Origin: Lewinella sp. 4G2
GTDB lineage: Bacteria > Bacteroidota > Bacteroidia > Chitinophagales > Saprospiraceae
Assembly: GCF_001625015.1 (NCBI RefSeq)
Contig: NZ_LVWJ02000014.1
Span: 124,001-188,000 of the forward strand
Length of the DNA: 64,000 nucleotides
Direction of reading: 5' to 3'
Shown here: positions 9,868 through 59,439 of the stretch, piece after piece
Layout: every line of letters begins with the position of its first letter
Position numbering within the stretch: the first letter of the stretch is position 1
Program-made: the position numbers and the translations under genes
The notes under the pieces: model-generated
What the model was told of the DNA's origin: nothing
The model's input: the letters and a program-made list of their open reading frames with translations, nothing else
Databases searched by the model: none

Positions 9868-9949
9868 TAGTCGGGTAGTCGGGTAGTGCACGTGTGTCAT
9901 GCACGCACTACTCGACTACCCGACTACCCGACTAAAAACTACCCTACTA
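9868..9949 (-). repeat. Stop-anchored octamer array (TAGTCGGG family)
   Basis: Read on the minus strand, the TAG stop of sprA (9949-9947) is the first TAG of a run spaced mostly 8 nt apart: TAGTAGGG, a variant unit, then TAGTCGGG twice and TAGTCGAG. The array folds back: the arm at 9868-9889 pairs with the inverted arm within 9905-9934, with the loop around TGCATGACACACG. It could act as the sprA transcription terminator. It shares the stop-codon architecture of the 7-nt arrays elsewhere in the window but has a different unit length and sequence. Confidence 0.8.
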
Positions 9950-21088: not shown

Positions 21089-21192
21089 AGTAAGTAGGGA
21101 GTTGCGAGTTGCAAGTGTCGAGTTGCGAGTAACAAGTATCGAGTTGCGACTTGCTACTTGATACTCTTTACTCGCAACTTGCTACTCGCTAC
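21089..21192 (-). repeat. Stop-anchored heptamer array (GAGTAGC/AAGTTGC family), inverted
   Basis: Read on the minus strand from the last sense codon of the TIGR02757 gene: GAGTAGC (containing the TAG stop at 21191-21189), GAGTAGC, AAGTTGC, GAGTAAA, GAGTATC, AAGTAGC, AAGTCGC, then the inverted half AACTCGA, TACTTGT, TACTCGC, AACTCGA, CACTTGC, AACTCGC. Units stay in 7-nt phase across the centre. It fills nearly the whole gap up to the next gene and can fold as a long imperfect hairpin. Confidence 0.85.
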
Positions 21193-29657: not shown

Positions 29658-29662
29658 GGTGA

Positions 29663-29690
29663 GTCTATAGTCTTTAGTTGTTAGTCAGTG
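29663..29690. repeat. Short one-armed heptamer array (TAGTCTR family) upstream of nqrE
   Basis: On the minus strand: GACTAAC, AACTAAA, GACTATA, GACTC, ending about 5 nt before the nqrE ATG. Same unit as the arrays after tolC, the DUF4412 gene and the SRPBCC gene, but only one arm and not next to a stop codon (nqrD stops at 29728). Confidence 0.6.
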
Positions 29691-36833: not shown

Positions 36834-37877
36834 ATGCTTCTTCGCATCTCTTCTCTGTTACTTGCCCTCTTCCTCTGCACCTGCGTCAGCGCCCAAAATC
36901 TGCCGGACAAGGCCAAAAACCGCGCCGCCGACCGGGCCGAACGCAAAGCCAATAACAAGGTCGACCAAAAGGTAGACCAGGCCGTGGACGAGACCTTTAA
37001 GGCCATCGAAGGGCTATTCAAAAAGAAGAAAAAGAAAAATAAAAACGGCGAGCCAGCCGCCAATCAAACGGCAACCCAACGGACGGGCACGGCACCCCAA
37101 AAAGGAGATGCTGACTACGAACAAACCGTCGACGATGGCGGTCTCGTACCCAACGACGGCAACGAATACGCGGACGACGAAGAAGTGGGCAATGCCCTCT
37201 CCAATTTATTTGGGGGCGGCGGCGATTTTGAACCCTACACGAACGACGTAGCCTTCAGTATGGACATGCACGTCAAAAGCATCAAACGCAACGGAAAGAC
37301 CGAGGAATCCACCATCTCGATGGCCGTAGGCCGCACTCAGGTTGCGCAGAAAGTCAACTTTGAAGACAAGGGCGAAAAGGGCAATAGTTGGTCCATCTTC
37401 GATACCCAAACCGGCAAGGTCACGCTAATCACAACTAGCAAGGGCGAAACTACCGGCATGCGGATGAAGAGCCCCAACCTGAGGAACCTCATCAAACCCG
37501 ACGCCGCCCAGGACTACCTCGACGGCATCACCTACGAAAACACCGGCGAAACCCGCATCATTGAGGGCTACAACACCACCAAGTACGTCATGACGGACAC
37601 CCGCGAAGGCACCGTAACCGAATCCTGGATCACCACCGACATTGAAATTGACCCCACCGCAATGGCCTCCGCCATGAGCGCCTTCATCGGCGGCCAAACC
37701 CTAACGCCCGGTGAAAATGCGCCCGTGGAAGGCTTCCCCATCTTCACCACCTCCACCGATAAAAAAGGCAACCGCTACGAGATGACCTACAAAAACGTGA
37801 AGGTGGGCGAAGGGAATATCAATACCCAACTGTTCGATACGGGGAATATTCAGATTCAGGATATTCCAGGGTTCTAA
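36834..37877 (+). CDS. DUF4412 domain-containing exported protein
   Basis: 347 residues. Sec signal peptide (LLRISSLLLALFLCTCVSAQN). Residues ~22-65 are a highly charged helix ending in a Lys-rich run (LFKKKKKKNKNGE), then an acidic linker. The DUF4412 domain covers ~135-345 (FSMDMHVKSIKRNGKTEESTISMAVG, ... YNTTKYVMTDTREGTVTESWITTDIEID). Such proteins are periplasmic or surface proteins of Bacteroidota with no known activity; the fold resembles lipoprotein-carrier-like beta structures. The codons of the signal peptide resemble a diverged copy of the dispersed palindrome. A heptamer hairpin starts two bases after its TAA stop. Confidence 0.85.
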   Translation: MLLRISSLLLALFLCTCVSAQNLPDKAKNRAADRAERKANNKVDQKVDQAVDETFKAIEGLFKKKKKKNKNGEPAANQTATQRTGTAPQKGDADYEQTVDDGGLVPNDGNEYADDEEVGNALSNLFGGGGDFEPYTNDVAFSMDMHVKSIKRNGKTEESTISMAVGRTQVAQKVNFEDKGEKGNSWSIFDTQTGKVTLITTSKGETTGMRMKSPNLRNLIKPDAAQDYLDGITYENTGETRIIEGYNTTKYVMTDTREGTVTESWITTDIEIDPTAMASAMSAFIGGQTLTPGENAPVEGFPIFTTSTDKKGNRYEMTYKNVKVGEGNINTQLFDTGNIQIQDIPGF

Positions 37878-37879
37878 AA

Positions 37880-37965
37880 AGTCTGTAGTCTATAGTCTGG
37901 AGTCTATAGTAGTCCCTGCCTAGCAGGGTGGCTACAGACTAAAGACTATAGACTACAGACTAAAA
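37880..37965 (+). repeat. Stop-anchored heptamer array (TAGTCTR family), inverted, with inner hairpin
   Basis: Starts 2 nt after the TAA stop of the DUF4412 gene. Left arm of TAGTCTA/TAGTCTG units (~37880-37913), an inner hairpin CCCTGC/GCAGGG (37914-37928), right arm of ACAGACTA/ATAGACTA units (37929-37965). The right end directly abuts the tRNA gene, whose discriminator base is at 37968. Suited to terminate the DUF4412 transcript and, on the other strand, the tRNA transcript. Confidence 0.85.
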
Positions 37966-37967
37966 GG

Positions 37968-38040
37968 TGGGCCCACCAGGATTTGAACCTGGGACCGACG
38001 GATTATGAGTCCGGCGCTCTAACCGCTGAGCTATAGGCCC
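37968..38040 (-). tRNA. tRNA-Ile2 (anticodon CAT, read by lysidine modification)
   Basis: 73-nt cloverleaf on the minus strand. Acceptor GGGCCTA pairs with TGGGCCC (two G-T/A-T ends allowed), D arm GCTC...GAGC, anticodon loop CTCATAA (anticodon CAT), T arm CCAGG...CCTGG with TTCAAAT loop. The DCTCATAATC context and GGGCC.. acceptor match bacterial tRNA-Ile2 rather than elongator or initiator tRNA-Met, so C34 should be converted to lysidine by TilS to read ATA. The 3' CCA is not encoded in full (ACCT). One C-U mismatch closes the anticodon stem. Sits between two heptamer hairpins of different families. Confidence 0.93.
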
Positions 38041-38047
38041 TGTTTTA

Positions 38048-38103
38048 AGTTGCGAGTAGCAAGTTGCAAGCCTACTAGTACTTGCAACTTGCTACTCGTA
38101 ACT
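38048..38103. repeat. Heptamer hairpin (AAGTTGC family) upstream of the tRNA
   Basis: 23-nt arms (38048-38070 and 38081-38103) with one mismatch and a 10-nt loop (CCTACTAGTA). Built of AGTTGCG, AGTAGCA, AGTTGCA-type heptamers, the same family as the arrays after the TIGR02757 and ArsR genes. Lies immediately 5' of the tRNA on its strand. Confidence 0.85.
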
Positions 38104-38216
38104 CTCAGTTCCACAAAGGTAGCCAACCCGCCAAAAGTTACCGTACCGGGGTGGAATTTTACGGGGGAAAACTTTTCTAGATTGTAATGCGGCGAGCAAA
38201 TAAGTGCGCCAACCGC

Positions 38217-42334: not shown

Positions 42335-43681
42335 TTACTTAGCGTCCTCCTTGTAGAAATCTTCCTTGTCTACAACGTTGACTTTCTTGCCTTCCTTCAG
42401 GTTCCGCAACTCGCTGTAGGGGCCGGAGACAACCTGGTCACCGTTGTTCAATCCACCCGTTACTTCAATGACGGAACTGTTCTGTAGGCCAGTAGTAACG
42501 ATGGCTTTGCGTAGGGTATCGCCGGTCACTACAAACACGACTTCGTCCAGATCATCTAGGGCAACTACGTCTTCGTCCTCCGTTTCCTTTTGGCGGGTAG
42601 TGACGGCTTCGACGGGGATGGACACTACGCCCTTTGCGGCCTTAGTCAGGATATCCACGCCAGCGGACATGCCCGGGCGGAAGGGGTAAGTGTTGCCTTC
42701 GCGAACGAGGTCCGCGTAGCTTTCCGGTTCGATGCTGATACGAACTTCGAAGTTGGTCACCTGATCTGAATTCAGGACGTTGTCGGCGATGCCTGCCGTC
42801 GTGCTGGAGTTGGCGATCTGGGTGACGACGCCGCTGAACTTCCGGTTGATGTAGGCGTCCACTTCCACTTCGGCCTTGTTGCCGATCTTGACGGAGGGGA
42901 CGTCGTTTTCGGACACCTCCACCCGTACTTCCATGGCGTTCAGGTTGGCGATGCGCATGAGTTCGGTACCCGTCATTTGGATGGTACCGACCACCCGTTC
43001 GCCCTGTTCTACGTTGAGGAGAGAGACGACGCCGCCCATGGGAGCGTAGATCGTCGTCCGGCGCAGGGAAGTACGCAGTTCACTGAGGGTGGCCTGAGCG
43101 GATTCGACGCCGTACTGAGCGGCGCGGGCGGATTCTTTAGCGGCGTTGATATTACTGTCCGCTGCCCGTAGGTTAGCTTCGAGGCCCCGCAGGTTGGCGG
43201 CGCTCGCTTCCAATTCGGCCTGGCTGACTACACCATCCGCCGCTAGGCTCTTGTTCCGGTTATAAATTTCCTGAGCGTTGGTCAGTTGCGCTTCGATCTG
43301 CGCTTTCTGGGCCTGTAAGCTGCTGATTTGCGCTTTCGCATTGGAGGCCTGCGCCTTGCTACTGTTAACGCCGGCGACTCCACGGGCCACCTGGCTTTGG
43401 TAAGCATCGGCGTCGATCTTGGCTAGTAGTTGACCTGCCTTAACGCTGTCTCCTTCTTCCACGTAAAGTTCGACGACCTCACCCGATACGTCGGAAGAGA
43501 TCTTCACCTCCGTCTGGGGAAAGATCTTGCCACTGGCGCTGACGATCTCCTGGATATCCCTTGCCTTAGCTTCCGAAGTATAAACGCGGATGCCCTTCGG
43601 CCCCTGGTCCCCAAAGATGAGGGCACCGACGATGCCGAGTACGATGAGTAGGAATACGCCGATTACAATTTTGCGTGCCAT
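42335..43681 (-). CDS. HlyD/MacA-type periplasmic efflux adaptor
   Basis: 448 residues. One N-terminal inner-membrane helix (KIVIGVFLLIVLGIVGALIF). Residues ~45-80 form the first half of a lipoyl/barrel-sandwich (SGEVVELYVEEGDSVKAGQLLAKID), ~85-200 a long coiled-coil hairpin of Ala/Gln-rich helices (NSSKAQASNAKAQISSLQAQKAQIEAQL), then the second lipoyl half and beta-barrel (IYAPMGGVVSLLNVEQGERV). It bridges an inner-membrane pump and TolC. The pump gene itself is not adjacent in this window. Starts immediately after the heptamer array that fills the gap from tolC. Confidence 0.9.
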   Translation of the reverse strand: MARKIVIGVFLLIVLGIVGALIFGDQGPKGIRVYTSEAKARDIQEIVSASGKIFPQTEVKISSDVSGEVVELYVEEGDSVKAGQLLAKIDADAYQSQVARGVAGVNSSKAQASNAKAQISSLQAQKAQIEAQLTNAQEIYNRNKSLAADGVVSQAELEASAANLRGLEANLRAADSNINAAKESARAAQYGVESAQATLSELRTSLRRTTIYAPMGGVVSLLNVEQGERVVGTIQMTGTELMRIANLNAMEVRVEVSENDVPSVKIGNKAEVEVDAYINRKFSGVVTQIANSSTTAGIADNVLNSDQVTNFEVRISIEPESYADLVREGNTYPFRPGMSAGVDILTKAAKGVVSIPVEAVTTRQKETEDEDVVALDDLDEVVFVVTGDTLRKAIVTTGLQNSSVIEVTGGLNNGDQVVSGPYSELRNLKEGKKVNVVDKEDFYKEDAK

Positions 43682-43755
43682 TATTTAGTCTTTAGTCTGT
43701 AGTCTATAGTCTGCAGTCCGTAGTCTATTTACTATAGACTACAGACTATAGACTA
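43682..43755 (-). repeat. Stop-anchored heptamer array (TAGTCTR family) filling the tolC-hlyD spacer
   Basis: On the minus strand the tolC stop TAG (43755-43753) is followed in strict 7-nt phase by TCTATAG, TCTGTAG, TCTATAG, TAAATAG, ACTACGG, ACTGCAG, ACTATAG, ACTACAG, ACTAAAG, ACTAAAT, then A and the hlyD ATG. The outer halves pair as an inverted repeat. Nothing else lies between the two genes. Confidence 0.9.
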
Positions 43756-45201
43756 CTCTAGAGTTAGTCCTTGCCCTAGGTAGAATTCAATTACCTGGCG
43801 GTTAAAAATGAGTTGAAATTTAGATCTGGTGAGTTCCGTCCGGGCCTGATCGAGACGATTGGTGGCCGTCACTACGTCAAGGCTGTTGGCAACGCCGGCC
43901 CGGAAGAGACGGTCCGTATTATTGAAGGCGTCCTCCGAAGCCTCGAAGCTGACCTGAGCGGCGCGGTAGGATTGCCGGGCGGCCCGTAGATCGGCCAGCG
44001 CCAACTGTACGTCGTTGCGCAATTGGTTCCGGGCCTGTTCAATGTCCAGGCCGGCATTGAGCCGCTGGACCTCCGCCACCTGTACGTTGAGTTTGTTCCG
44101 CCCCTGGCTGTAGATCGGTACCTGCAGCGCGGCACCTACCGACTGGCCGAAGTTGCGGTCCAGTTGGTCGAAGTAGCCCAGGTTCGGGAAGACCAATCCA
44201 GTTGTGTTGAAGTTAGAGATCGTTCCCGGCATTCCGTTGATAATGACGGGTACGTCCGGTCCCTGCACCACTTCGACGTTGGACACGTCCGGATTGTTGA
44301 AGTCCTTGGAAACACTGGAGTAGTTCGTACTCAGGCTACCGAAGAGGCTGACGGTAGGGCGTAAACCACTCTTTGCCAAGTCCGTTCCGACCGCCGCCGC
44401 TTCCTGGCGGAGTTGCGCTGCCCGGATGGTAGGTTGAGTAGATTGCGCAGCTTGTAACACGGTGGCCAAGTCGTAATCCTGGAAGAGTTGCTCTTCGGTA
44501 GGGTTCAACTCCGGGGTAGCGATGTCGAAAGCTTCGTCGGGGTCGAGTTCCAACAGCAGTTGGAGGGTCAATTTGCTGATGGCCACCTGATTTTCCAACT
44601 CCACGATGGACCGCTCGGCGTTGGCCACCTGGGCTACAAGGTCGAAGCGCTGGGCGCGGGGTACGGAGCCCGCCTGGATCAAACGATCCGTATTGGACAG
44701 CTGGTTCTCGACGAGGGCCAGTTGCGCTTGTGCGTTGTTCAGCTGTTCGTTGAGCAGCACAATCGTCAGGTAAGAGTTAGCTACCTGGAGTCCTATGGTG
44801 TTACGGGTCACGATGGCATCCGTTTCCGCGGCCGCAAGGTTGAGGTCGGCTTGCCGCAGGCCATTTTTGATCTGCCCGCCAGCGTAAAGCAGCACGTTAC
44901 CCTGGATCTGGTAGCCTTGAAAACCAATCGTCTGCTGGTCGAACGTATTGGTAGTGGGGTCGATCGTCCGGCCGAGCTGTAGGCCAATATTGGTAGAGCC
45001 GTTCACCGTCGGAAGCCGCGCGTTCTTGGCCTGCTGCTGTTGGATACGGCTGATCTCCGAAATATTCCCGAGCCGCCGGACCTGCAAGTTGTTCTCAAAG
45101 GCGTATTCCACGGCCTTTTCGAGCGTCCACGCTCCACCGTTCTGAGCGGAAAGTCCCTGGGTAAAACAGAGGGCAAGTACGAAGAGAGTAAATGTGCGCA
45201 T
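43753..45201 (-). CDS. TolC family outer-membrane efflux protein
   Basis: 482 residues with a signal peptide (RTFTLFVLALCFTQGLSAQ). Two homologous halves of long helices and short strands, typical of OEP/TolC: NAGLDIEQARNQLRNDVQLALADLRAARQSYRAAQVSFEASEDAFNNTDRLFRAGVANSLDVVTATNRLDQARTELTRSKFQLIFNRQVIEFYLGQGL closes the second half. Trimers form the outer-membrane channel and periplasmic tunnel for a tripartite pump with the HlyD-like adaptor encoded next. Ends with TAG that begins the heptamer array. Confidence 0.93.
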   Translation of the reverse strand: MRTFTLFVLALCFTQGLSAQNGGAWTLEKAVEYAFENNLQVRRLGNISEISRIQQQQAKNARLPTVNGSTNIGLQLGRTIDPTTNTFDQQTIGFQGYQIQGNVLLYAGGQIKNGLRQADLNLAAAETDAIVTRNTIGLQVANSYLTIVLLNEQLNNAQAQLALVENQLSNTDRLIQAGSVPRAQRFDLVAQVANAERSIVELENQVAISKLTLQLLLELDPDEAFDIATPELNPTEEQLFQDYDLATVLQAAQSTQPTIRAAQLRQEAAAVGTDLAKSGLRPTVSLFGSLSTNYSSVSKDFNNPDVSNVEVVQGPDVPVIINGMPGTISNFNTTGLVFPNLGYFDQLDRNFGQSVGAALQVPIYSQGRNKLNVQVAEVQRLNAGLDIEQARNQLRNDVQLALADLRAARQSYRAAQVSFEASEDAFNNTDRLFRAGVANSLDVVTATNRLDQARTELTRSKFQLIFNRQVIEFYLGQGLTLE

Positions 45202-45321
45202 GGGTAAGATATGTGGTGGGCAAAGCTAGCCACTCCGGGCCGCGGTAGGTTAACTTATCTATGAACGTGCGATATTAATGGAAGAACGGGTTGAAATCTT
45301 CGTCCCGATTCTTACCTCTGC

Positions 45322-46428
45322 CTAAGCATCCCCCCCATTTAGCCAACCCCGGCGCCAGAACCAACCGAACATCAGCACGACGATGGTAAACATCACACCG
45401 AGCAGAATAAAGTAGCCGTTCGGATTTTTTAATTCGGGGATATACTCAAAATTCATTCCGTAGATCCCAGCCAGAAAGCTCAGCGGCATGAATATGGTGG
45501 ACACGATCGTGAGCGTCTGCACCACCGAATTGGTCCGAAAAGTGATTTCACTCACGTAGAGGTCATAGAGCCCGTTCGTTACGTCCCGGTAAGTCTCTAC
45601 GAGGTCGGTGACCTGGATGACGTGGTCCTTCAAATCCCGCACGAACAACTGGGTATCCTCGGAGATGAGGTGATGTTCCGAATCCCCAAAGGTGCTCACC
45701 ATCTCTCGTAGGGGGCTGATACTTTTGCGCATCGTCAGTAAGCTCAGTTTAAGGTCGTGGATCTCGCTTTTGGTCTTCACTTCCGGCCGCTTCAGAATCT
45801 GGTTTTCCAGTTCATCCAGCGCGGCTTCTACCTTATCCAGGACGGTAAAATAGCGGTCCACAATATTGTCCACCAGTGCGTAGGCGAGGTAATCCGCCGG
45901 GCGGGTACGGATGCGGCCGGACTTCGTCTCCAGCCGTTTGCGCACGGAGGCCAGCAAATCGCCAGCGTCCTCCTGGAAGCTCAGTACGGTACGATCGTGC
46001 AGGTAGATGGAAACCTGTTCCACGCTCAGTTGGCGGGTGGTTTCGTCGAAGGCAAAAGCCTTTAGCTGCAGTAAGATCCCTTCGGGATACGCCTCCATTT
46101 TGGGGCGCGTCATCACGTCCACGATGTCTTCCAGCGCGAGGGGGTGGACGGCGTAGCGCTGGCCCAATTCTTCAATGAGGTTCACGTTATGGAGGCCGCG
46201 CACGTCGTACCAAGTCACGCCATCGGTGGGGCGGACGACGGGGAGTTGATCCACCGTCATTTCGTGGGAGTAATCCTCTTGCTGGGCCCCAAATTGGGTA
46301 AGGTGGACGTGCACTTCCTCCATCTCCTTGCGGCCGGTGTAGACCATCGTCCCCGGAGGCGCGCCGGTAGTTCGTTTCAGGAACGGGATTTTTTCCGTTT
46401 GGTCCCGCAGCAATTTAGTTACGCGCAT
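45322..46428 (-). CDS. corA: Magnesium/cobalt transporter CorA
   Basis: 368 residues. A long cytoplasmic alpha/beta domain and stalk helix (~1-300) and two C-terminal membrane helices. The selectivity motif GMN is in LAGIYGMNFEYIPELKNPNGY (~325), followed by the loop and the second helix YFILLGVMFTIVVLMFGWFW and a short basic tail. A pentamer imports Mg2+ (also Co2+ and Ni2+). Stand-alone gene, transcribed away from the sugar-dehydrogenase gene. Confidence 0.95.
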   Translation of the reverse strand: MRVTKLLRDQTEKIPFLKRTTGAPPGTMVYTGRKEMEEVHVHLTQFGAQQEDYSHEMTVDQLPVVRPTDGVTWYDVRGLHNVNLIEELGQRYAVHPLALEDIVDVMTRPKMEAYPEGILLQLKAFAFDETTRQLSVEQVSIYLHDRTVLSFQEDAGDLLASVRKRLETKSGRIRTRPADYLAYALVDNIVDRYFTVLDKVEAALDELENQILKRPEVKTKSEIHDLKLSLLTMRKSISPLREMVSTFGDSEHHLISEDTQLFVRDLKDHVIQVTDLVETYRDVTNGLYDLYVSEITFRTNSVVQTLTIVSTIFMPLSFLAGIYGMNFEYIPELKNPNGYFILLGVMFTIVVLMFGWFWRRGWLNGGDA

Positions 46429-46457
46429 GGTGAGTGGTTGATAAGTAGCGAAAGTAG

Positions 46458-46474
46458 GGCGCTGCCGCAGGTGC
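46458..46474 (+). repeat. Dispersed imperfect palindrome, copy 6
   Basis: GGCGCTGCCGCAGGTGC in the 254-bp divergent gap between corA and the sugar-dehydrogenase gene, followed by CGGGTAATGGGTGAGG. Confidence 0.85.
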
Positions 46475-46682
46475 CGGGTAATGGGTGAGGCACCCTCCGT
46501 CAGGAACTTGTATAAATATAGGAATATACCGGACCAACAATCGATTGGTTCAGGATGGCCTGCACCAACATCCTGTGGACGGTGTTATCTTGGTTATCAA
46601 TAGTGCTTCCTGAAATGGAGGTGGGATATATTGGTTAGCACAGGCAAGCCGTTCCGCCCCCATTCATTTGATACCTACGATC

Positions 46683-49600
46683 ATGTTACTATCCCCGAAA
46701 ACAATCAACTCACGGCTCTTACTCTTTTTGCTGCTGCCCCTACTGTGGGCCTGTGGCGACGACAAGGCCACTACTTACGTTAACCTCCCCGCGGACGGCC
46801 CGGTGCTCATCGTCGGGGAAACGGATGGCGGCATACTCGATAAGCTCAAGCAAGGGCTCGGGAAACCTTCCGCCGTAGCCGGTTACCGAATGCTGGAGGA
46901 AGATTCACTGTTTAATTACCGCTACCTCGTACTGCTCTCCCCCCTCCACGATAGCCTGACGGCGCACCGGAGGACTTCCGTCGAGCGCTTCGTGGCTGCC
47001 GGTGGCCGTTTGGCCATCGACGATCCACGGCCGGCCGAACCTTACCGCTGGGCCTGGTACGAACAGCAACGTACGGGCAAATCCTCCAGCCCCCGGTCCG
47101 TCGGCAAAGGGATGACGGCTTTAGCTGACGGTGGCGCCATCAGCGCAGGGTTTTTTACCTCCGCCCCCAACTCCGCACCCGCGGCAGCGCATGAGCTCCC
47201 ACTGACTGCACCAAAAGAAGACCGTTTTCAGGTACAGGTACTGGATGATGCCATTTACGAACCCATGGAAATGGAGGTGCTGCCCGACGGTAGCGTGCTC
47301 TTCCTGGAGCGGCGCGGTAAAATGAAGATCAACCGCGGTGGCGTGACTAGCCTGGTGCACGATTTCGACGTCTGTATTGAAGGCAACTACGAAGATGGCC
47401 TCCACGGTGTTGCCCTGGCCCCTGGTTACGGTAAGACGAACCACCACATTTACGTCTACTACAGCCCCGCGCCCTGCGACTCTACGGACCAGTTCCTCAG
47501 CCGCTTCGAATTCAAAAACGGGGTATTGGATACGACCAGCGAGATTGTCGTCCTACGGGTGCCCGTGCAGCGCAAGAGTTGCTGCCACAGCGGCGGCTCG
47601 GTGGAATTCGACCGGCTGGGCAACCTCTACCTCTCTACGGGGGATAACACGAGCTCTAAGGAAAGTAATGGCTACAGCCCGCTGGATGAACGCCCTGGCC
47701 GCGGACCCTACGACAGTCAGAAATCCAGTGGCAACACTAACGACCTACGGGGCAAGATCCTGCGGATTACGCCTACGGCGGAAGGTGGGTACACGATCCC
47801 CGAAGGCAATCTCTTCCCGAACGGAGAGGGCGGCAAGCCGGAGATCTACGTGATGGGCGCCCGCAACCCCTTTCGGATTGCGCTCGACCCGTGGACGCAC
47901 TACCTCTACTGGGGCGACGTCGGCCCGGACGTGGGCGAAGCCGGCAAGTTTGGCCCCGAAAGCTTTGATGAGTGGAACCAGGCCGCAACGGCCGGCAACT
48001 ATGGCTGGCCCTACTTTGTAGGAAATAACTTTGCCTACCCGGACCGGGACTTTACGGATGATTCCGTTGGAGAGCTATTCAATCCCGAACGCCCCATCAA
48101 CGATAGCCCCAACAACACCGGTGCCCGGGAATTGCCGCCCGCCCGCCCCGCCCTGATCTGGTACCCCTACGGGCCGAGCGAGGAATTTCCCATCCTCGGA
48201 ACGGGTAGCCGGTCGGCGATGGCCGGCCCCTTCTACGACGCGGAATCCCTGGTACCCATTACTAACTCCGCCCTGCCGGAGTACTACCACGGCAAGTGGT
48301 TCATCTACGAATGGGGCCGCAGCTGGATCAAGGCCGTGACCTTGGATAGCGCCCGCCAGCAGATCGTTCAGATTGAGGACTTCCTACCGAATCTGCCCAT
48401 CTCCAAGCCGATCGACTTCAAGATTGGCCGCGACGGCTCGATGTACCTGCTGGAATACGGCAACGACTATTTCGCGAATAACCCCGACGCCCGCCTGATC
48501 CGCGTGAGCTACTCCGCCCGCAACCGGCCTCCGGTAGCGGATCTTTACGCCAGTGAGGTAGCGGGAGGTTTACCCTTCCGCCCTACCCTTTCCGCCGCTG
48601 ACTCACGCGACCCCGACCCGGAGGATTCCCTCACCTACCGCTGGTACATCGACGGGATATTGGAGAGCACGGAAATGGACTTTAAACCGTCCATCACGGC
48701 GGCGGGGGAACACATCATTCGCCTGGAGGTGGAGGATGCCGCCGGCGCTACCGCCGAGCAATCCCTGACCGTGGCGGCGGGTAACGCCCGACCCGTCCTT
48801 GCATTGGAGATGGAAAACAACCGCAGTTTCCTCCTTCCCGGGCAATCCGAGCTGGCCTACCGCGCCACGGTTGATGATGCCGAAGACAGGGTCAACGGCC
48901 GGTTAGATCCGAAAAAGGTACTCGTCAACGCTACCTGGGTAGCGGACGAGAAATTGGCCAACGGGCTCCGCCGCGGAACGGACCAGCTTCCCAGTGGAGA
49001 TCTCGCCTTCGCCGCCGGGGCCGGGCTGATCGAGGGCTCCGATTGCTACACCTGCCACGCCGAGCGCCGCGAAAACGTGGGACCATCCTACCTCGCCGTA
49101 GCCGAGCGTTACGAGGACACACCGGCTAATATCAAGATGCTCGCCACCAAAGTGATCAAAGGCGGTAACGGGAATTGGGGGGAACGGCTGATGTCCGGCC
49201 ACCCCGCCCTCAAAACGGAAGACGCGGAAACAATGGTGGGGTACATCCTCAGCCTCAATAACGGTGGCCTCCCACTGGAAGGCAAAGCCAAACCAGGAAC
49301 GGGCAGCGGGAGCTACGTGATCGCCGCCAGCTACCGGGACAATGGGGGTAAACAGACACCACCACTCGTTGGCCAGCAAGCGATCGTACTACGGTCACCC
49401 CGCGTGGAAGTGGAGACGGGCAACGACGGGCTATACCGCGCGGCCGTCCCCGGTAGCGGACAGAACTTCGCCTTCCGCGTAGTGGCCTTCCGCCCCGGAG
49501 GATGGCTGAAGATGGATAACATCGACCTGAAGGGCCTGGCCGGCTTCCGCCTGGGCCTCCACGGTGACGCGAACGGGGAACTAGAACTTCGCTACGGCGG

Positions 49601-49835
49601 CCCAGACGGGCAATTACTGGCTCAAACGACCGTCAGCCCCACTCAACCCTGGGACGGGGTGGACGAGCTTACCCTGGAGCTACCTGCATCAGCGGCCGAC
49701 CTGGAGATGGGCGATCTCTACTTTGTGTGGAAGGGCGAAGGTGGCGTCGTAGCCGACGATATGGGCCACCACCGCCCCGGCGACGTAGGTTGGATCGACT
49801 GGATTGAAGCCGTAGGGAATGGGTTAGCGCGATAG
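46683..49835 (+). CDS. Lipoprotein with sugar dehydrogenase propeller, PKD, cytochrome c and CBM domains
   Basis: 1050 residues from the ATG at 46683 (the TTG 15 nt upstream is less likely). A lipobox lies at LLPLLWACGDD. Order: residues ~30-125 a short alpha/beta piece like a degenerate ThuA domain (VLIVGETDGG...FVAAGGRLAIDD); linker with palindrome copy 7; ~165-570 a PQQ-dependent glucose/sorbosone dehydrogenase propeller (GLHGVALAPGYGKTNHHIYVYYSPAP, RKSCCHSGGSVEFDRLGNLYLSTGDN, NTNDLRGKILRI, GARNPFRIALDP); ~600-690 a PKD domain; ~770-870 a c-type cytochrome with CYTCH and MSGHP axial Met; ~880-1050 a CBM6-like module. Likely oxidises a sugar or polyol outside the inner membrane and passes electrons to the cytochrome. 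Confidence 0.88.
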   Translation: MLLSPKTINSRLLLFLLLPLLWACGDDKATTYVNLPADGPVLIVGETDGGILDKLKQGLGKPSAVAGYRMLEEDSLFNYRYLVLLSPLHDSLTAHRRTSVERFVAAGGRLAIDDPRPAEPYRWAWYEQQRTGKSSSPRSVGKGMTALADGGAISAGFFTSAPNSAPAAAHELPLTAPKEDRFQVQVLDDAIYEPMEMEVLPDGSVLFLERRGKMKINRGGVTSLVHDFDVCIEGNYEDGLHGVALAPGYGKTNHHIYVYYSPAPCDSTDQFLSRFEFKNGVLDTTSEIVVLRVPVQRKSCCHSGGSVEFDRLGNLYLSTGDNTSSKESNGYSPLDERPGRGPYDSQKSSGNTNDLRGKILRITPTAEGGYTIPEGNLFPNGEGGKPEIYVMGARNPFRIALDPWTHYLYWGDVGPDVGEAGKFGPESFDEWNQAATAGNYGWPYFVGNNFAYPDRDFTDDSVGELFNPERPINDSPNNTGARELPPARPALIWYPYGPSEEFPILGTGSRSAMAGPFYDAESLVPITNSALPEYYHGKWFIYEWGRSWIKAVTLDSARQQIVQIEDFLPNLPISKPIDFKIGRDGSMYLLEYGNDYFANNPDARLIRVSYSARNRPPVADLYASEVAGGLPFRPTLSAADSRDPDPEDSLTYRWYIDGILESTEMDFKPSITAAGEHIIRLEVEDAAGATAEQSLTVAAGNARPVLALEMENNRSFLLPGQSELAYRATVDDAEDRVNGRLDPKKVLVNATWVADEKLANGLRRGTDQLPSGDLAFAAGAGLIEGSDCYTCHAERRENVGPSYLAVAERYEDTPANIKMLATKVIKGGNGNWGERLMSGHPALKTEDAETMVGYILSLNNGGLPLEGKAKPGTGSGSYVIAASYRDNGGKQTPPLVGQQAIVLRSPRVEVETGNDGLYRAAVPGSGQNFAFRVVAFRPGGWLKMDNIDLKGLAGFRLGLHGDANGELELRYGGPDGQLLAQTTVSPTQPWDGVDELTLELPASAADLEMGDLYFVWKGEGGVVADDMGHHRPGDVGWIDWIEAVGNGLAR
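47175..47190 (-). repeat. Dispersed imperfect palindrome, copy 7 (inside a CDS)
   Basis: 16 of 17 core bases (outermost G missing), on the minus strand in the linker between the N-terminal domain and the propeller of the sugar dehydrogenase. Read there as NSAPAAAHE, a low-complexity stretch unlike the domains on either side. Confidence 0.75.
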
Positions 49836-49860
49836 GCTGATCCTACTAGTAATGCTTACG

Positions 49861-49911
49861 AAGGGCTTTCGGTCACGTACTTCTATTAGGAGTGCCAGAC
49901 CGGAAGCCCTT
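49861..49911 (+). terminator. Terminator after the sugar-dehydrogenase gene
   Basis: 14-nt arms (49861-49874 and 49898-49911) pairing with one G-T, an inner hairpin ACTTCT/AGGAGT, and a T-rich tail, 25 nt after the stop. Confidence 0.85.
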
Positions 49912-49973
49912 TCTAATTTCGGTTGGAGGTCCCAGCCTTTTGCCTATATTTCGATCCACAAACCACCCACCTC

Positions 49974-50969
49974 ATGCAAAGAAGAAAATTCCTCCATACT
50001 ACCGGTAAATCCGCTCTTGGACTATCCCTCCTCGGCTTGGCGGCAGCCTGTGCCAATGAACCCGGCACCGGCGACAGCGCCACAGAAGTTGCTAGTACCG
50101 AAGATATGCTGTCGGGAGAAGTAGCCAAATGGTTTGACATCAGCTTGGCGCAGTGGTCTCTACATAAGATGCTCCGAGGTGGCGAAATGGACAATCTGGA
50201 CTTCGCCGGGATGGCCCGCAACACCTTTGGCGTGGGGGGGATTGAGTACGTCAATCAATTCTTCAAGGACAAGGCGACCGATTCGGACTACCTGAAGGAG
50301 ATGCAAAAGCGGGCGATGGACGCTGACGTGAAATCCCTGCTCATTATGATCGATCGGGAAGGCGACCTTGGGGATACAGACAAGAAGGCACGAATGCAGG
50401 CCGTAGAAAACCACTACAAGTGGATCGACGCCGCAAAATACCTGGGCTGCCACAGTATCCGCGTCAACGCGGCGGGAGAGGGCAGCCGGGAAGAGGTCGC
50501 TAAGGCCGCAACCGAAGGCCTGGCGACCCTGAGTGAATACGGTAAGGAACGGGACATCAACGTTATCGTAGAAAACCACGGCGGGTACAGTTCTGATGGG
50601 CAATGGCTAGCGGGCGTCATCAAAGGAACGGGGATGGACAACTGCGGCACGTTGCCCGATTTTGGCAACTTCTGTGTAGAACGGAACAACCCCGAAAAGT
50701 GGGAGGATGGCTGCAAAACGGAGTACGATCGCTACAGGGGGGTTGAGGAACTCATGCCCTTCGCCAAAGCCGTATCCGCCAAGGCTTACGACTTTGACGC
50801 AGCGGGCCTCGTCACGGAAACCAATTATGCGAAGATGATGAAGATCGTCCAGGACGCCGGGTACAAAGGCTGGATCGGGATTGAGTACGAAGGCAACGGA
50901 CTGACCGAGAAGGAAGGCATCAAAAAAACCATTGAGGTCCTCCAGCAATTTGGCGGTCGTTTGGGATAA
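49974..50969 (+). CDS. Sugar phosphate isomerase/epimerase-like lipoprotein, Tat-type signal
   Basis: 331 residues from the ATG at 49974. The N-terminus QRRKFLHTTGKSALGLSLLGLAAAC joins a twin-arginine-like motif (RRKFL) to a lipobox, so it is likely folded before export and then lipid-anchored. The body is a xylose-isomerase-type TIM barrel (AP endonuclease family 2): FDISLAQWSL, DADVKSLLIMIDREGDLG, CHSIRVNAAGEG, INVIVENHGGYSSDG, GTLPDFGNFC, YKGWIGIEYEG. The Glu and Asp/His metal ligands (VENHGG, DFGN, IEYEG) are visible. The substrate is unknown; family members act on sugars or inositols. Same strand as the sugar dehydrogenase. Confidence 0.88.
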   Translation: MQRRKFLHTTGKSALGLSLLGLAAACANEPGTGDSATEVASTEDMLSGEVAKWFDISLAQWSLHKMLRGGEMDNLDFAGMARNTFGVGGIEYVNQFFKDKATDSDYLKEMQKRAMDADVKSLLIMIDREGDLGDTDKKARMQAVENHYKWIDAAKYLGCHSIRVNAAGEGSREEVAKAATEGLATLSEYGKERDINVIVENHGGYSSDGQWLAGVIKGTGMDNCGTLPDFGNFCVERNNPEKWEDGCKTEYDRYRGVEELMPFAKAVSAKAYDFDAAGLVTETNYAKMMKIVQDAGYKGWIGIEYEGNGLTEKEGIKKTIEVLQQFGGRLG

Positions 50970-51021
50970 GGGTTAACGAGGCGCGTAGTAACCAACTCGC
51001 CCTTATTCATCTGGCACCTAC

Positions 51022-51061
51022 TGAAAAGCCACCGAAGACTTCCATCTTCGGTGGCTTTTCA
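51022..51061. terminator. Bidirectional terminator between isomerase-like gene and accC
   Basis: Perfect 17-bp stem (51022-51038 and 51045-51061) with a 6-nt loop, with A- and T-runs at either end. Lies between the two convergent genes. Confidence 0.93.
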
Positions 51062-51087
51062 CGTGTAGGATACTGGTAGCGTGCTGG

Positions 51088-52437
51088 CTACTCCGGCAGT
51101 TCCTGCTTACCTAACCAGCCGGTATCGAAATTACCCTGGCGGAAGTCTTCCTGCTTCATGAGCCACTGGTGGAAAGGCACGGTGGTCTTGACGCCTTCGA
51201 TGATGAATTCGTCGAGGGCGCGTTCCATTTTGGTGATGGCTTCCTTACGCGTCGGGGCACGCACGATCAGTTTGGCGATCATGGAGTCGTAGTAAGGGGG
51301 GATCGTGTAGCCGGCGTAAACGTGGGTATCTACCCGCACGCCCTGGCCTTTAGAACTGTGGAAGCTGGAGATCTTACCGGGGCTGGGGCGGAAGTTATTC
51401 CAGGGGTCCTCGGCGTTGATGCGGCATTCGATGGCGTGGGCTTTGGGATAGTAGTTTTCCCCGGAAAGCTTCTCACCGTAAGCGACGCGGATCTGTTCCT
51501 TGATGAGGTCGTGGTCGATCACTTCTTCCGTTACCGGGTGCTCGACCTGGATGCGGGTGTTCATTTCCATGAAGTAGAAGTTACGGTCCGAATCCACCAG
51601 GAATTCTACGGTACCGACGCCTTCGTAGTTGATAGCCTTGGCCGCTTCGATGGCTGCCTGACCCATGTCTTCGCGGAGCTTATCCGTCATGAAGGGGCTG
51701 GGGCATTCCTCAACCAATTTCTGGTGGCGGCGCTGAATGGAGCAGTCCCGCTCGGAAAGGTGGATCACGTTACCGTACTGGTCACCAATCACCTGGATCT
51801 CGATGTGCCGCGGCTTGGTGATGTACTTCTCCATGTACATGCCGTCATTGCCGAAGGCAGCCTTGGCTTCCGTGCGGGCGCTTTCCCAGGCTTTCTGGAA
51901 CTCCTCCTCGGCGTTGACGATACGCATCCCCTTGCCACCACCACCGGCGGTCGCTTTGAGCATGACGGGGTAGCCCATTTTCTTGGCTTGGGCGCGGCCA
52001 TCGTCGGCGGATTTAAGCAGCTCGCCATCACCGGGAACGACGGGCACCTTGGCCTTGATCATCGTATCCTTTGCGGTAATCTTATCCCCCATGCGGCGGA
52101 TCTGCTTGGGGTCGGGGCCGATGAATTTGATACCGTAGTCGGCGCATACCTCGGCGAAATCCGCATTCTCGGAAAGGAAACCGTAGCCCGGGTGGATGGC
52201 ATCCGCGTTGGTGATTTCCACTGCGGCCATGATCTTGGGGATGCTGAGGTAGCTTTCCGAGGATGCGGCGGGGCCAATACAAACGGCCTCATCGGCGAAC
52301 CGTACGTGGAGACTGTCGCGGTCGGCGGTAGAATAAATAGCTACCGTTTTGATGCCCATTTCGCGGCAAGTACGGATCACGCGCAGCGCAATCTCACCGC
52401 GGTTGGCGATGAGGATCTTCTTGAATTTTTCAGCCAT
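51088..52437 (-). CDS. accC: Acetyl-CoA carboxylase, biotin carboxylase subunit
   Basis: 449 residues, normal length. N-terminal pre-ATP-grasp fold ([50 protein letters not shown]), glycine-rich ATP loop ([14 protein letters not shown]), and the catalytic residues in [17 protein letters not shown] (Glu, Asn, Arg). Carboxylates the biotin on AccB with ATP and bicarbonate, the first step toward malonyl-CoA. Follows accB on the same strand (83-nt gap). Confidence 0.97.
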
Positions 52438-52520
52438 AATTGTGGTCTGGTAATCGTTCAGTTTCCGTCCCGGTCGGGATGCACCTGGCTAACCCGAAAG
52501 GACGAAAGCAGGACGTACTT

Positions 52521-53048
52521 TTAGGAAGGGTCGACGAGGAAGAGGGGCATATCGTATTCGATCGGCGAGGCGTCCTCAACGAGCACCTTGACGATCGTAC
52601 CGCTCACTTCACTCTCAATTTCGTTGAAAAGCTTCATCGCTTCTACGATGCAGACGGTATCGCCTTTGGCGACGGTGTCTCCCACCTTAACGTAGGCGTC
52701 CTTATCCGGAGAAGAGGACCGGTAGAAGGTACCGATCATGGGTGACTTGATCTGCACGTAGTGGCTTTCATCCACCTTACTTCCACCAGCTTCTTCCTTT
52801 TGGGGAGCGGCGGCGGCTGGCGCAGCGGCGGGAGCCGGAGCCGGAGCAGCTGTGGGTGCAGCAGCGTAGGCGGGGGCGGCCGGTACGTTGATGATGGAAG
52901 GGCCACCGGCAGCGGGCGTATTCACGTTACCGCTGAGGTAGGATTTTCCGCGGATGTGCAGTTTTACATCACCGTTGGAGTATTTGAACTCGGAGATTTC
53001 CCGCTTAGAAATGATGCGGATGAGTTCCTGGATTTCTTCAATGCTCAT
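52521..53048 (-). CDS. accB: Acetyl-CoA carboxylase biotin carboxyl carrier protein
   Basis: 175 residues from the ATG at 53048 (SIEEIQELIRIISKREISEF is the family start; a longer frame to 53120 overlaps efp and is rejected). An Ala/Pro-rich flexible linker (~60-100) leads to the biotinyl domain with the target lysine in CIVEAMKLFNEI (usual EAMKM has Leu here). Carries carboxybiotin between AccC and the carboxyltransferase AccAD. 13 nt after efp, so co-transcribed. Confidence 0.97.
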   Translation of the reverse strand: MSIEEIQELIRIISKREISEFKYSNGDVKLHIRGKSYLSGNVNTPAAGGPSIINVPAAPAYAAAPTAAPAPAPAAAPAAAAPQKEEAGGSKVDESHYVQIKSPMIGTFYRSSSPDKDAYVKVGDTVAKGDTVCIVEAMKLFNEIESEVSGTIVKVLVEDASPIEYDMPLFLVDPS

Positions 53049-53061
53049 AGTTAGGTAGTGC

Positions 53062-53628
53062 TTAGCTTTTGGCGCGTTCGACGTAAGAGTTGCTACGGGT
53101 ATCAATCTTGATCCGGTCACCGATATTGATGAAAAGTGGTACGCGTACTTCGGCCCCCGTCTCTACCGTAGCTGGCTTAAGGGTATTTGTTGCCGTATCT
53201 CCCTTTACGCCGGGCTCGGTGTAGGTGATCTCCATTTCGATGTACTGGGGGAGATCTACGGTAAGGGGCGTATCGTCTTCGGTGTTGTACAGGACTTCGA
53301 CGGTATCGCCTTCCCGCAGCATGCCGGGGTTTTCGATCATGGCGTCGGCGATCATGGCTTGTTCGTAGGTCTCGTTGTTCATGAAGTGGTACCCCATGTC
53401 GTCCTTGTAGAGGAACTGCATTTTGTGGCGCTCGACGCGTACCTCCTGAACCTTGTGGCCGGAGGGGAAGGTCTCACTCAGTACACGACCGGTGGAGAGG
53501 CTCTTGAACTTCGTCCGTACGAAAGCGGGGCCTTTGCCGGGCTTGACGTGCTGGAATTCCGTGATGGAAACGATGTCATTATTGTGCTTGAACGTAAAGC
53601 CGTTCTTGATATCCGAGGTGGTAGCCAT
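53062..53628 (-). CDS. efp: Elongation factor P
   Basis: 188 residues from the ATG at 53628 (ATTSDIKNGFTFKHNNDIVSITEFQHVKPGKGPAFVRTK), the usual EF-P length. Lys32 in KPGKGPAF is the site at the tip of domain I that contacts the ribosomal P-site. Three beta-barrel domains end with GDRIKIDTRSNSYVERAK. EF-P relieves ribosome stalling at polyproline. First of the efp-accB-accC unit, a frequent order in Bacteroidota. Confidence 0.97.
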   Translation of the reverse strand: MATTSDIKNGFTFKHNNDIVSITEFQHVKPGKGPAFVRTKFKSLSTGRVLSETFPSGHKVQEVRVERHKMQFLYKDDMGYHFMNNETYEQAMIADAMIENPGMLREGDTVEVLYNTEDDTPLTVDLPQYIEMEITYTEPGVKGDTATNTLKPATVETGAEVRVPLFINIGDRIKIDTRSNSYVERAKS

Positions 53629-53784
53629 TTGGTTAGTTTTGGTTAGAAAGTCCCGTTTGCTATCGGCCACTGCTGTAAGCCGTAAAGAAAGGCTGATGTT
53701 TAACGGGGGGCCAAGATAACACCAATCCGGGCCAATTCACCAACTCCCACAACAACAGTAAGCACACGCAGGAAGGGTCTATGT

Positions 53785-54501: not shown

Positions 54502-54853
54502 CTCCAGATCGGGCGTGATGTACTTATTCAATGGTGTCGGTTTAGTAGCCGACTCTACCCTTTTGCCACCGGACAATTCTTCCGGGGCTAGGCCAGCGTT
54601 TCCGCTAGGCCATTTGACTACAATTTTTCCTTGCCTCAAAGTTAGAGCAAACAGATTGTTGAACCTAAGAATTGGACAGAGTTATTTTGTTTGCTTTTTC
54701 CCTTTTAGGGTAGTATTCAGTCTATAGTCTGTAGTCTGCAGTCTGCAGGGATAAGGCTCTCTAGGTGGCCACCTATCCGAGCGCAGCGACAATAGGTGGT
54801 TCCTGGAGCGGCCGGGTTTTTGAGTCTACAGTCTGTAGTCTATAGTCTTTAGC
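54502..54853. other. Gap between radC and the PorE-like gene holding composite repeats
   Basis: No gene of its own seen. It contains the heptamer arrays and hairpin element annotated separately and an AT-rich stretch (about 54640-54715) that could carry the radC promoter. Confidence 0.5.
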
Positions 54854-54856
54854 CTA
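54718..54856 (-). repeat. Composite heptamer array (TAGTCTR family) after the PorE-like gene
   Basis: On the minus strand the TAG stop (54856-54854) begins the phase: GCTAAAG, ACTATAG, ACTACAG, ACTGTAG, ACTC. A ~73-nt insert with a hairpin (CCACCTAT/ATAGGTGG) follows, then a second set (CTGCAGACTGCAGACTACAG and on to 54718). Both sets have the same orientation, unlike the inverted arrays. Confidence 0.75.
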
Positions 54857-56824: not shown

Positions 56825-56829
56825 TCTGG

Positions 56830-56837
56830 CAAAGATA
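56830..56837 (-). promoter_or_regulatory. -7 element TATCTTTG at the end of a heptamer array
   Basis: Exact TAnnTTTG match 6 nt upstream of the GTG start of the PorE-like gene, formed partly from the last heptamer (ACTATC) of the upstream array. Would give a nearly leaderless mRNA. No -33 box. Confidence 0.4.
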
Positions 56838-56912
56838 GTCTGTAGTCTATAGTCTGTAGTCCGAGAGTCGCGGGCTACAGACTGCAGACTATAGACTACA
56901 GACTATAAACTA
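56833..56912 (-). repeat. Stop-anchored heptamer array (TAGTCTR family), inverted
   Basis: On the minus strand the SRPBCC gene's TAG stop (56912-56910) starts the phase: TTTATAG, TCTGTAG, TCTATAG, TCTGCAG, TCTGTAG, two off-consensus units forming the loop, then ACTACAG, ACTATAG, ACTACAG, ACTATC. Phase is kept over the centre. It fills the spacer to the next gene. Confidence 0.88.
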
Positions 56913-57377: not shown

Positions 57378-57719
57378 CAGTTCGGTTTTGCAGTAGAAGC
57401 GCAAATGCCACTAAAGGTTTGTAGTTGATGATAAACGGTGATTTTCTCCTTACGAATGGATGCTTGCCAAGAAAATTCGCCTCTTTCGAATTAATTACGG
57501 GCTAAGCAGTTCGCCAAAATTTCTTCGGCGAAGGCGGACTAGTAGCCAAGCAACTTCTCATTAATTCTGGCACTGGCCAATTTTTGCACCGGATATTCCT
57601 CTTATCATACTCTCCGCTTCTTTTTCATACGCCGACCAATCTTTTGGCAGGACGAAAATTGTTTGGTTGATTGTACGCCTATATTATCTTCGCCTTCCGA
57701 AATATTAACCCTCCTGCCT
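57378..57719. other. 342-bp AT-rich gap before the dksA-like gene
   Basis: No ORF. Divergent between the SRPBCC gene and the dksA-like gene; the only clear element is the promoter listed separately. Confidence 0.5.
57662..57692 (+). promoter_or_regulatory. Bacteroidota promoter TTTG-N19-TATCTTCG for dksA-like gene
   Basis: TTTG at 57662-57665 and TATCTTCG at 57685-57692, separated by exactly 19 nt, against the consensus TTTG-N19-TAnnTTTG with one mismatch. The best two-part promoter in the window. Start of transcription would fall near 57699, about 20 nt before the ATG. Confidence 0.55.
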
Positions 57720-58088: not shown

Positions 58089-58180
58089 CAAGATCTACGT
58101 CGATTATGTAATTTGCGGCCCTTCCACTTCTGTGGTGGGGCCGTTGTCTTTTTACGCCTCCTACTCGCCAGCACCAACCT

Positions 58181-58903: not shown

Positions 58904-58926
58904 GACCAAGCTATCATCCGGATGAT

Positions 58927-59238: not shown

Positions 59239-59357
59239 GGCTAAAGCGTTACTCCCGCAAAGTTCCACTTAGCTCCCGACGGAAAATCAGCGTATTTCGC
59301 AACGGCGGTCCGTTACGGCACGAAATTGGCCTTACATAGCAGCAAAGTGCTATATAT

Positions 59358-59439
59358 CACTTGCAACTCGATACTTGCAACTCGATACTCCCAACTCGCT
59401 ACTTGCAACTCGCCACTTGCAACTCGCTACTCCCAACTA
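59358..59439 (-). repeat. Stop-anchored heptamer array (GAGTWGC family), single orientation
   Basis: On the minus strand the ArsR (b) stop TAG (59439-59437) begins: TAGTTGG, GAGTAGC, GAGTTGC, AAGTGGC, GAGTTGC, AAGTAGC, GAGTTGG, GAGTATC, GAGTTGC, AAGTATC, GAGTTGC, AAGTGAT. Twelve units in phase and no inverted arm, so it cannot form the long hairpin of the other arrays. Confidence 0.88.

Follow-up and report, generated by a model that had tools for sequence, protein, structure and literature searches.

The 71-nt spacer between a tolC-like and an HlyD-like gene of the DNA analysed here is occupied end to end by a hairpin of tandem TAGTCTR heptamers, which raises the question of why an array of short repeats should stand flush with a stop codon. 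The window, that is, the whole stretch of 64,000 nt that was analysed, corresponds to positions 124001–188000 of its contig in a genome of 5.2 Mb and 21 contigs. The predicted fold of the tolC element is one stem of −37.9 kcal/mol (z = −8.9). A sequence-only reading of the window had placed arrays of this kind at seven gene ends, and all seven were confirmed by sequence (Table 1); they were the only ones among the 46 genes called in the window with an array beginning within 30 nt of the stop. A search of the whole window with Rfam at gathering thresholds returned a tRNA only and no match for the arrays.

Table 1. Arrays and neighbouring features in the window (positions are those of the window).
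Feature	Position	Strand	Evidence
TAGTCTR array hairpin of the tolC–hlyD spacer (the given element)	43682..43755	-	sequence, TRF, fold, Pfam of both flanking genes
tolC-like gene (OEP family), stop TAG	43753-43755	-	Pfam
HlyD-like gene, ATG abutting the TAGTCTR hairpin	42335-43681	-	Pfam
sprA 3′ end, octamer hairpin of TAGTCGGG	9868..9949	-	TRF, sequence; SprA_N (Pfam)
DUF2400 gene (TIGR02757 in the earlier reading) 3′ end, RAGTWGC heptamer hairpin	21092..21191	-	TRF, sequence, Pfam
'DUF4412' gene 3′ end, TAA stop then TAGTCTR hairpin	37875..37964	+	TRF, sequence
tRNA gene just beyond the 'DUF4412' TAGTCTR hairpin	37968-38040	-	Rfam
PorE-like (PD40/OmpA) 3′ end, two TAGTCTR arms	54718..54856	-	TRF, sequence, Pfam
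SRPBCC-like (Polyketide_cyc) 3′ end, TAGTCTR hairpin	56835..56912	-	TRF, sequence, Pfam
ArsR(b) 3′ end, RAGTWGC array in one direction (11.4 units, TRF)	59359..59439	-	TRF, sequence, Pfam
Further RAGTWGC hairpin beside the tRNA, away from any stop	38047..38110	.	ends read by eye
Further short TAGTCTR run at a start codon, away from stops	29658..29690	.	ends read by eye

Six of the seven stops had been described as lying in the phase of their array, and five could be counted. The stop TAG was exactly in phase with the array TAGs at the ends of the DUF2400, tolC-like, PorE-like and SRPBCC-like genes; at the first of these it lies within the array, which takes most of a 111-nt spacer, and at the last it is the first unit. 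At ArsR(b) the stop TAG stands in the RAG place of the first unit, the array TAGs being at phase 3. The description did not hold for sprA, where the first two units are in phase and the main 8-nt array, starting 15 nt downstream from the T of the stop TAG, is out of step by one base (TAG at 15, 23, 31 and 39), nor for the 'DUF4412' gene, which ends in TAA and has array TAGs out of phase (phase 4), with one extra TAG at phase 0. The protein encoded by the latter gene gave no Pfam match, and its label comes only from the earlier reading. An inverted second half had also been ascribed to most arrays; the PorE-like end differs, its arms (54823–54856 and 54718–54748) being direct repeats that flank a GC-rich hairpin of another repeat.

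This GC-rich hairpin repeat (GGCCGCTCCAGGAACC...GGCCGCCTGGAGAGCC), found at 54749–54822 of the window and in several spacers, lies within or beside TAGTCTR arrays, and the next arm is direct and not inverted. At 37878–38110 the tRNA gene stands between two unlike arrays, with the TAGTCTR hairpin by its 3′ end and the RAGTWGC hairpin on the opposite side. The TAGTCTR run at the start codon lies in the spacer between two minus-strand genes (29049–29657 and 29728–30465).

The genome was sampled as 1.248 Mb of the same contig (about 24% of the genome), in which a simple codon-usage finder called 787 genes; small genes are missed by this finder, some gaps are overlong and starts are approximate. 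Arrays were called at 15 or more matches in 21, with a first-order Markov sequence as control. Period-7 arrays numbered 150 against 7 in the control, with 143 intergenic, and period-8 arrays 48 against 5, with 44 intergenic. Periods 4, 5, 10, 11 and 13 were found no more often than in the control, periods 6, 9, 12 and 15 were elevated chiefly in coding DNA (28 of 102 period-9 arrays were intergenic), and period 14 echoes period 7. Intergenic arrays of periods 7 and 8 exceed chance by far, and the sample contained 157 intergenic elements and 134 occupied spacers.

The arrays had been divided into three sequence families, which proved too few: at least seven unit families were present in the sample (TAGTCTR, TAGTCGGG, RAGTWGC, TTTGGTGC, GATTCTC, TTTTAGA and TAGTTKC). 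As read from the sequences, GGG occurs among these seven in TAGTCGGG only. No stop triplet is contained in the consensus units GATTCTC and TTTGGTGC of this genome or GATATGC of the related genome G030, although TTTGGTGC has TAG-bearing variants. The elements follow one plan, an outer 7- or 8-nt tandem arm, a variable loop and an inverted arm, and lone arms are common too. Among 138 clusters, 46 were inverted pairs of the +− order and one of the −+ order, 77 were single arms and 14 were of other types, so that in 46 pairs against one reversed the unit runs inward from each gene edge. Single arms that could be sided (74 of 77) pointed away from the nearest gene in 54 cases and toward it in 20.

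Stems were detected in 66 of the 125 elements examined, these counts and the folding being made on 125 of the 134 occupied gaps, with long elements omitted. In 16 hairpins of the TAGTCT family the similarity of the loops was 0.118 against 0.111 for shuffled sequences, and that of the arms was 0.74. Whole-element copying of the MITE type was rejected for this family, the internal loops being unrelated. The two arms of one element resembled each other slightly more than arms of different elements in three comparisons (0.913 vs 0.875, p = 0.01; 0.84 vs 0.81, p = 0.02; 0.907 vs 0.833, p = 0.009) and did not in the TAGTCGGG family (0.906 vs 0.909, p = 0.56). Since arms are barely more alike within than between elements, strong selection for pairing was not shown.

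Other repeats were seen in the same material. The TTTGGTGC hairpins have, by eye, a common inner GCTGCCGC stem, and a short motif resembling GCACCYGCGNCNGCGCC is repeated in many spacers of both this species and G030. A repeat of about 150 bp at approximately 509100–511300 of the contig is present in two copies close together and at several more sites of the sample; beside it lies a sequence with 390 nt present four times in the sample at 99–100% identity. When duplicated loci with and without an array were sought within the sample, only other repeats were found among the matches listed.

Enrichment of arrays at stop codons, which had been named as the check on the sequence-only reading, was borne out. 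With random placement of elements within their spacers as the expectation, 80 of the 134 3′ ends facing an element lay within 10 nt of it or were overlapped (36.9 ± 3.2 expected), and the corresponding 5′ ends showed no excess (25 of 134; 22.9 ± 3.0 expected). Coding ends were overlapped by arrays 43 times at the 3′ side and four times at the 5′ side. After exclusion of the spacers with arrays entering coding DNA (44 of 134), 32 of 75 3′ ends were still within 10 nt (13.1 ± 2.4 expected), the 5′ value being 18 of 105 (14.3 ± 2.6 expected); stop proximity is therefore not solely a result of arrays bringing stops into frame. When a zone of 60 nt before starts was reserved, the excess was smaller and still there (56 of 92 observed, 43.8 ± 2.2 expected). 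In convergent spacers 18 of 21 elements touched a stop, with 10.0 expected, and, there being no promoter to avoid in such spacers, this indicates some real preference for stops beyond the edge effect proposed below. A stop was no more than 20 nt away from 57 of the 84 clusters of TAG-bearing families and from 7 of the 18 clusters of the two families counted as lacking TAG (p = 0.03). Occupancy of gaps of at least 60 nt was 21 of 91 for convergent and 92 of 420 for co-directional spacers; divergent spacers, which contain no stop, were occupied in 21 of 123 cases against 113 of 511 for the others (p = 0.27).

Where an array starts 30 nt or less from the stop, the gene is here called anchored; TAG was the stop of 55 of 84 anchored genes and of 263 of 703 others (p = 1e-6), and the proportion was 27 of 51 where the array began after the stop (p = 0.04 against the same 263 of 703). 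The stop had been said to set the phase of the array. An in-phase TAG was found in 23 of the 28 arrays that contain the TAG stop, in 6 of 27 that begin after a TAG stop (3.7 expected, p = 0.16) and in 5 of 15 that begin after a TGA stop (2.1 expected, p = 0.05). Phase coupling mainly belongs to stops that are themselves array units, where it follows almost of necessity, and the stop codon as phase-setter was rejected because the in-phase TAG is significant only for arrays containing the stop. In the window the PorE-like and ArsR(b) arrays, called from +1 and nonetheless in phase, are exceptions. Arrays started upstream of the stop in 26 of 84 cases, by no more than 19 nt; in a wider set with period 14 included, the deepest lay 30 nt upstream and four lay beyond about 18 nt.

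As neither 7 nor 8 is a multiple of 3, a reading frame that enters a TAG-bearing array meets a TAG within three units. Of the 84 anchored arrays, 38 contain a stop in each of the three frames inside 24 nt, as do 15 of 703 control ends. A stop codon that seems to belong to the motif can thus be a result of arithmetic instead of function. A general translation safeguard was rejected, given the stop-free consensus units, the three-frame stops in only 38 of 84 arrays and the arrays of the related genomes G005, G002 and G014, in which TAG is not enriched. The G030 orthologues of 16 anchored TAG genes end in TAA seven times, TAG seven times and TGA twice, near the base rate of G030.

TAG is usually the rarest of the bacterial stop codons. 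In many species of this genus it is the commonest or nearly so (318 of 787 genes here, 27 of 46 in G009 and 22 of 44 in G013), and high TAG usage occurs also in species of the genus where no arrays were seen.

The reading that we prefer, at a probability of about 0.5, is that the arrays are lineage-specific, REPIN-like spacer repeats with 7- or 8-nt tandem arms, which fill unprotected DNA up to the stop and often supply it. Arm units would be copied between sites, expanded by slippage or template switching, and would accumulate in those parts of spacers that are not under selection. Promoter and leader DNA would keep the repeats from starts, and with nothing of the kind after a stop the arrays could reach or cross it. 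Entry of a TAG-bearing array into a gene end would be a harmless replacement of the stop, which would explain both the in-phase TAG and a large part of the excess of TAG. On this view, held at even odds, the stop codon marks where the protected DNA ends and does not organise the array; the stop excess in convergent spacers, the TAG excess where the array begins after the stop, the possible sharing of ends with G030 and the failure to find a copying enzyme speak against such an edge.

A functional 3′ hairpin, which would block re-initiation as a ribosome termination structure, end transcription or protect the mRNA, its structure being selected while its sequence drifts, appears unlikely, although several observations are in line with it. 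Besides the strong tolC stem, the predicted fold directly after the stop had a median z of −3.19 in the 84 array genes against −0.23 in the 703 others, stop-flush arrays are present in many species, and stops in all three frames follow 38 of the 84 anchored ends; post-stop structures have been reported in 128 bacterial genomes, according to the accessible part of PMC7518266. The tests at the RNA level gave no support to the termination or RNA-level function that had been suggested. Intrinsic terminators were rejected, co-directional stems being without T-runs (at least five T in the next 8 nt; 0 of 45). A consensus terminator scan of 43000–60000 gave 16 sites, against 18.2 in shuffled sequences, one of them at 54802–54816 (+ strand) within the PorE-like element, and in one convergent spacer a separate terminator-like hairpin was read next to the array, which argues against termination by the array itself. 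Selection on the RNA through G-U pairs was rejected as well, since stem mismatches in co-directional spacers showed no strand bias (38 G-U and 46 A-C on the transcribed strand, p = 0.45). When elements of co-directional spacers were folded with their flanks, the sense strand was less stable than the antisense strand (62 higher, 24 lower), a difference that is read as flank composition. Convergent spacers, moreover, are not favoured over co-directional ones, and divergent ones are not significantly depleted, as the occupancies given above show.

Comparison with the nearest relative, G030 (76% median protein identity; 157 reciprocal best hits between the regions that were compared), bears on the same alternative, as the layout had been thought to be kept at particular genes. 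Of the 157 orthologous pairs, 4 had an array no further than 60 nt from the stop in both species, 23 had one only here, 12 only in G030 and 118 in neither (p = 0.48); with the limit at 200 nt the counts, in the same order, were 7, 23, 15 and 112 (p = 0.14). With 4 of 27 and 7 of 30 ends shared at the two distances, retention at particular genes is largely not seen, a minority being possible. Arrays were detected in both species in 3 of 96 orthologous spacers. Looser detection in G030 gave arrays within 60 nt at 5 of 22 ends anchored here and at 7 of 135 others (p = 0.014), the best of 12 settings over which p ranged from 0.014 to 0.49, while the control periods 10 and 11 gave 0 of 22 throughout. 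A minority of gene ends may be shared with G030 and carry different units, as a functional hairpin would have it, and for this reason the edge model was weighed slightly lower and the functional alternative slightly higher. The G030 orthologues of the ends anchored here were not more structured (median fold z 0.47 for 22 ends and −0.26 for 135 others), which, together with five of 15 relatives without arrays in 60 kb samples, tells against a selected structure.

Truncation of genes by arrays was rejected, protein ends being mostly the same as those of the orthologue. The end lay within three residues of the orthologue's in 17 of 21 array-anchored proteins and in 107 of 126 without arrays, and the four anchored proteins deviating by more than three residues were all shorter here. 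Among 20 TolC rows, ten reached the TolC end and all had the same last residue, with TAA as the stop in nine and TAG in one (G030); the other ten were uninformative, another frame being followed or the end missed. Where an array was present here and none in G030, the spacer was longer by a median of 11 nt (n = 13, quartiles −29 and +41), the value for array-free pairs being −6.5. This difference, although widely spread, lies below a whole added element and would fit replacement of the spacer DNA. No clean empty site was found in the 13 orthologous spacers.

Fifteen relatives were sampled, G030 over 324 kb and the 14 others over 60 kb each, except G015 (20 kb). Occupied spacers were found in ten of them including G030, and none in the 60 kb samples of five. 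G030 contained 29 intergenic period-7 arrays in its 324 kb, with other units (CCGCCTA, GGTCTGT and GATATGC). In the pooled relatives (60 occupied spacers, 27 of them from G030) intergenic arrays numbered 49 for period 7 and 40 for period 8, each other period from 4 to 13 giving at most 14. The 3′ ends lay within 10 nt in 27 of 70 cases (14.3 ± 2.3 expected) and the 5′ ends in 11 of 50 (9.1 expected), and TAG was the stop at 19 of 29 anchored ends against 312 of 838 (p = 0.003). The layout thus recurs among the sampled relatives while the units mostly differ, in agreement with the earlier view that the same layout is found with different sequences, now seen across unit families and across species.

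TAGTCTR pairs occur at 222 sites here and at 0–2 in each of 18 same-genus genomes, and TAGTCKGG pairs at 58 sites here and once each in two of a further 60 genomes, 59 of which belong to other genera of the family. Exact TAGTCTR triples are also scattered over unrelated genomes, where at least 117 stretches contain one, so that the unit can arise elsewhere. Among the matches listed, such triples were on many contigs of one Bacteroidaceae MAG (JABUTZ01; L097, L098, L100, L123, L136, L137 and others), and 26 exact triples were at one place in Pseudoalteromonas aurantia (L124). In two orthologous spacers (224/217 nt and 168/251 nt) the arrays consist of GATTCTC units here and of GATATGC units in G030 and have a common core (GCTACCGC with flanks). 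The GATTCTC/GATATGC family may therefore be homologous, its heptamers having been replaced in concert.

A site-directed mobile element, in which a RAYT, an IS200/IS605-like or another enzyme inserts 3′ of TAG with stops as its target, is also improbable. It would agree with the stop preference in convergent spacers, the TAG excess when the array starts after the stop, the fixed polarity of the inverted pairs and the six Y1_Tnp genes of this genome, and GTAG REPs are described in the available text of PMC3733652 as often giving neighbouring genes their TAG stops. None of the six Y1_Tnp loci, however, was flanked by the array families within 1.5 kb on each side, and Y1_Tnp is present in 20 of the 21 genus genomes, including all five without sampled arrays. 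A RAYT as the driver was rejected on these two grounds. At locus L216 an RAGTWGC pair lies about 1.2 kb from Y1_Tnp, and near the gene at L214 there is a weak period-8 run of 44 nt with a different sequence. The loops, not common to copies in the TAGTCT family, and the lack of a clean empty site in 13 spacers also weigh against insertion of an element. The RAYT-like genes at L213, L214 and L215 are flanked by other GC-rich hairpins (e.g., CCCGGGGTC...GACCCCGGG), which occur in spacers too and are possibly REPs of their own.

More doubtful still is a genus-wide, still active process that would write 7- and 8-nt units peculiar to each species into spacers, always pointing outward and with a real preference for the DNA 3′ of stops, each array-bearing lineage having its own "alphabet" of units within one constant layout; if it were true, the system, REPIN-like or based on templated addition, would have no known enzyme. 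Templated end addition, in which an RNA or DNA template would direct the writing of units onto the two free 3′ ends of a break or stalled fork before these are joined, is very improbable: it would produce arms of outward polarity, a different loop in each element and varying numbers of units, as the polarity (46:1 in pairs, 54:20 in single arms), unrelated loops and homogeneous arms might suggest, but a palindromic parent with decayed arms would give equal polarity, and Ku had no match in any of the 21 genus genomes. Classical end joining therefore looks absent, and Ku-dependent end joining was rejected.

No published account of such arrays in Saprospiria was found by a search that covers subscription journals poorly. 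The nearest kin are the heptamer repeats of Xanthomonas and Nostoc (GGGAATC and GGGGAYT), which in the accessible part of Rehm et al. (2015, PMC4692102) are mostly intergenic and present at many sites. There, Xcc has 186 repeat patterns with 70 inverted pairs, most downstream repeats are on the coding strand no more than 50 bp from the stop, which some of them overlap, and the repeats generally have no tie to mobile elements or to a gene class. They are G-rich with four units preferred, form quadruplexes and are under-represented between divergent ORFs, and 83% of positions are common to two close species (PMC4692102, same part). The arrays described here resemble them in having intergenic 7-nt units (143 of 150), placement near or over stops and inverted pairs. 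In contrast to what that part of the account describes, there are several units per genome, mostly without G-runs, 8-nt units occur also, units are replaced between congeners, and most positions are not common with the nearest relative, G030 being more distant than the pair compared there. Between divergent genes the occupancy here was 21 of 123 against 113 of 511 for the other spacers (p = 0.27). Stop-flush, often inverted heptamers are thus now found also in a Bacteroidota genus, and as species of the genus differ in their units but keep period and placement, the layout is tied neither to the quadruplex explanation nor to a particular sequence.

REPINs are inverted pairs of REPs with a less conserved spacer (2011, PMC3116915), and the termini of GTAG REPs often supply the TAG stop of a neighbour (Di Nocera et al. 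2013, PMC3733652). As far as the accessible parts of these papers go, the likeness lies in high-copy extragenic inverted pairs with a variable spacer, lineage-specific families and TAG-supplying termini, inverted pairs being here a minority of clusters (46 of 138). The arrays differ in their tandem 7/8-nt arms of varying length, in having no fixed body with an unpaired GTAG/CGTC tag, and in that no RAYT gene is flanked by the array families (0 of 6 Y1_Tnp loci). TAACTGA heptamers are known from Beggiatoaceae, Cyanobacteria and some Bacteroidetes (MacGregor 2015, PMC4679880); in a Beggiatoaceae genome this single unit stands mostly just before starts, in 169 direct sets and one indirect, according to the available text. 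These too are intergenic 7-nt direct repeats found in Bacteroidetes, but on the start side and with one unit, whereas the arrays here are on the stop side and have several units. The ribosome termination structure, as the accessible part of Chemla et al. (2020, PMC7518266) describes it, is a stable predicted structure just after stops, and in this the arrays agree (z −3.19 vs −0.23). That structure is defined by folding, enriched where the neighbour is on the opposite strand and depleted co-directionally, which array occupancy is not (21 of 91 vs 92 of 420).

With 21 same-genus genomes and arrays in 10 of 15 sampled relatives, the genus offers a comparative system for the origin and spread of spacer repeats. 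The arrays combine traits known from these systems and differ from them in several unrelated tandem 7/8-nt units and in rapid turnover between species; they look more like fast-changing spacer repeats than like a device kept for stopping genes.
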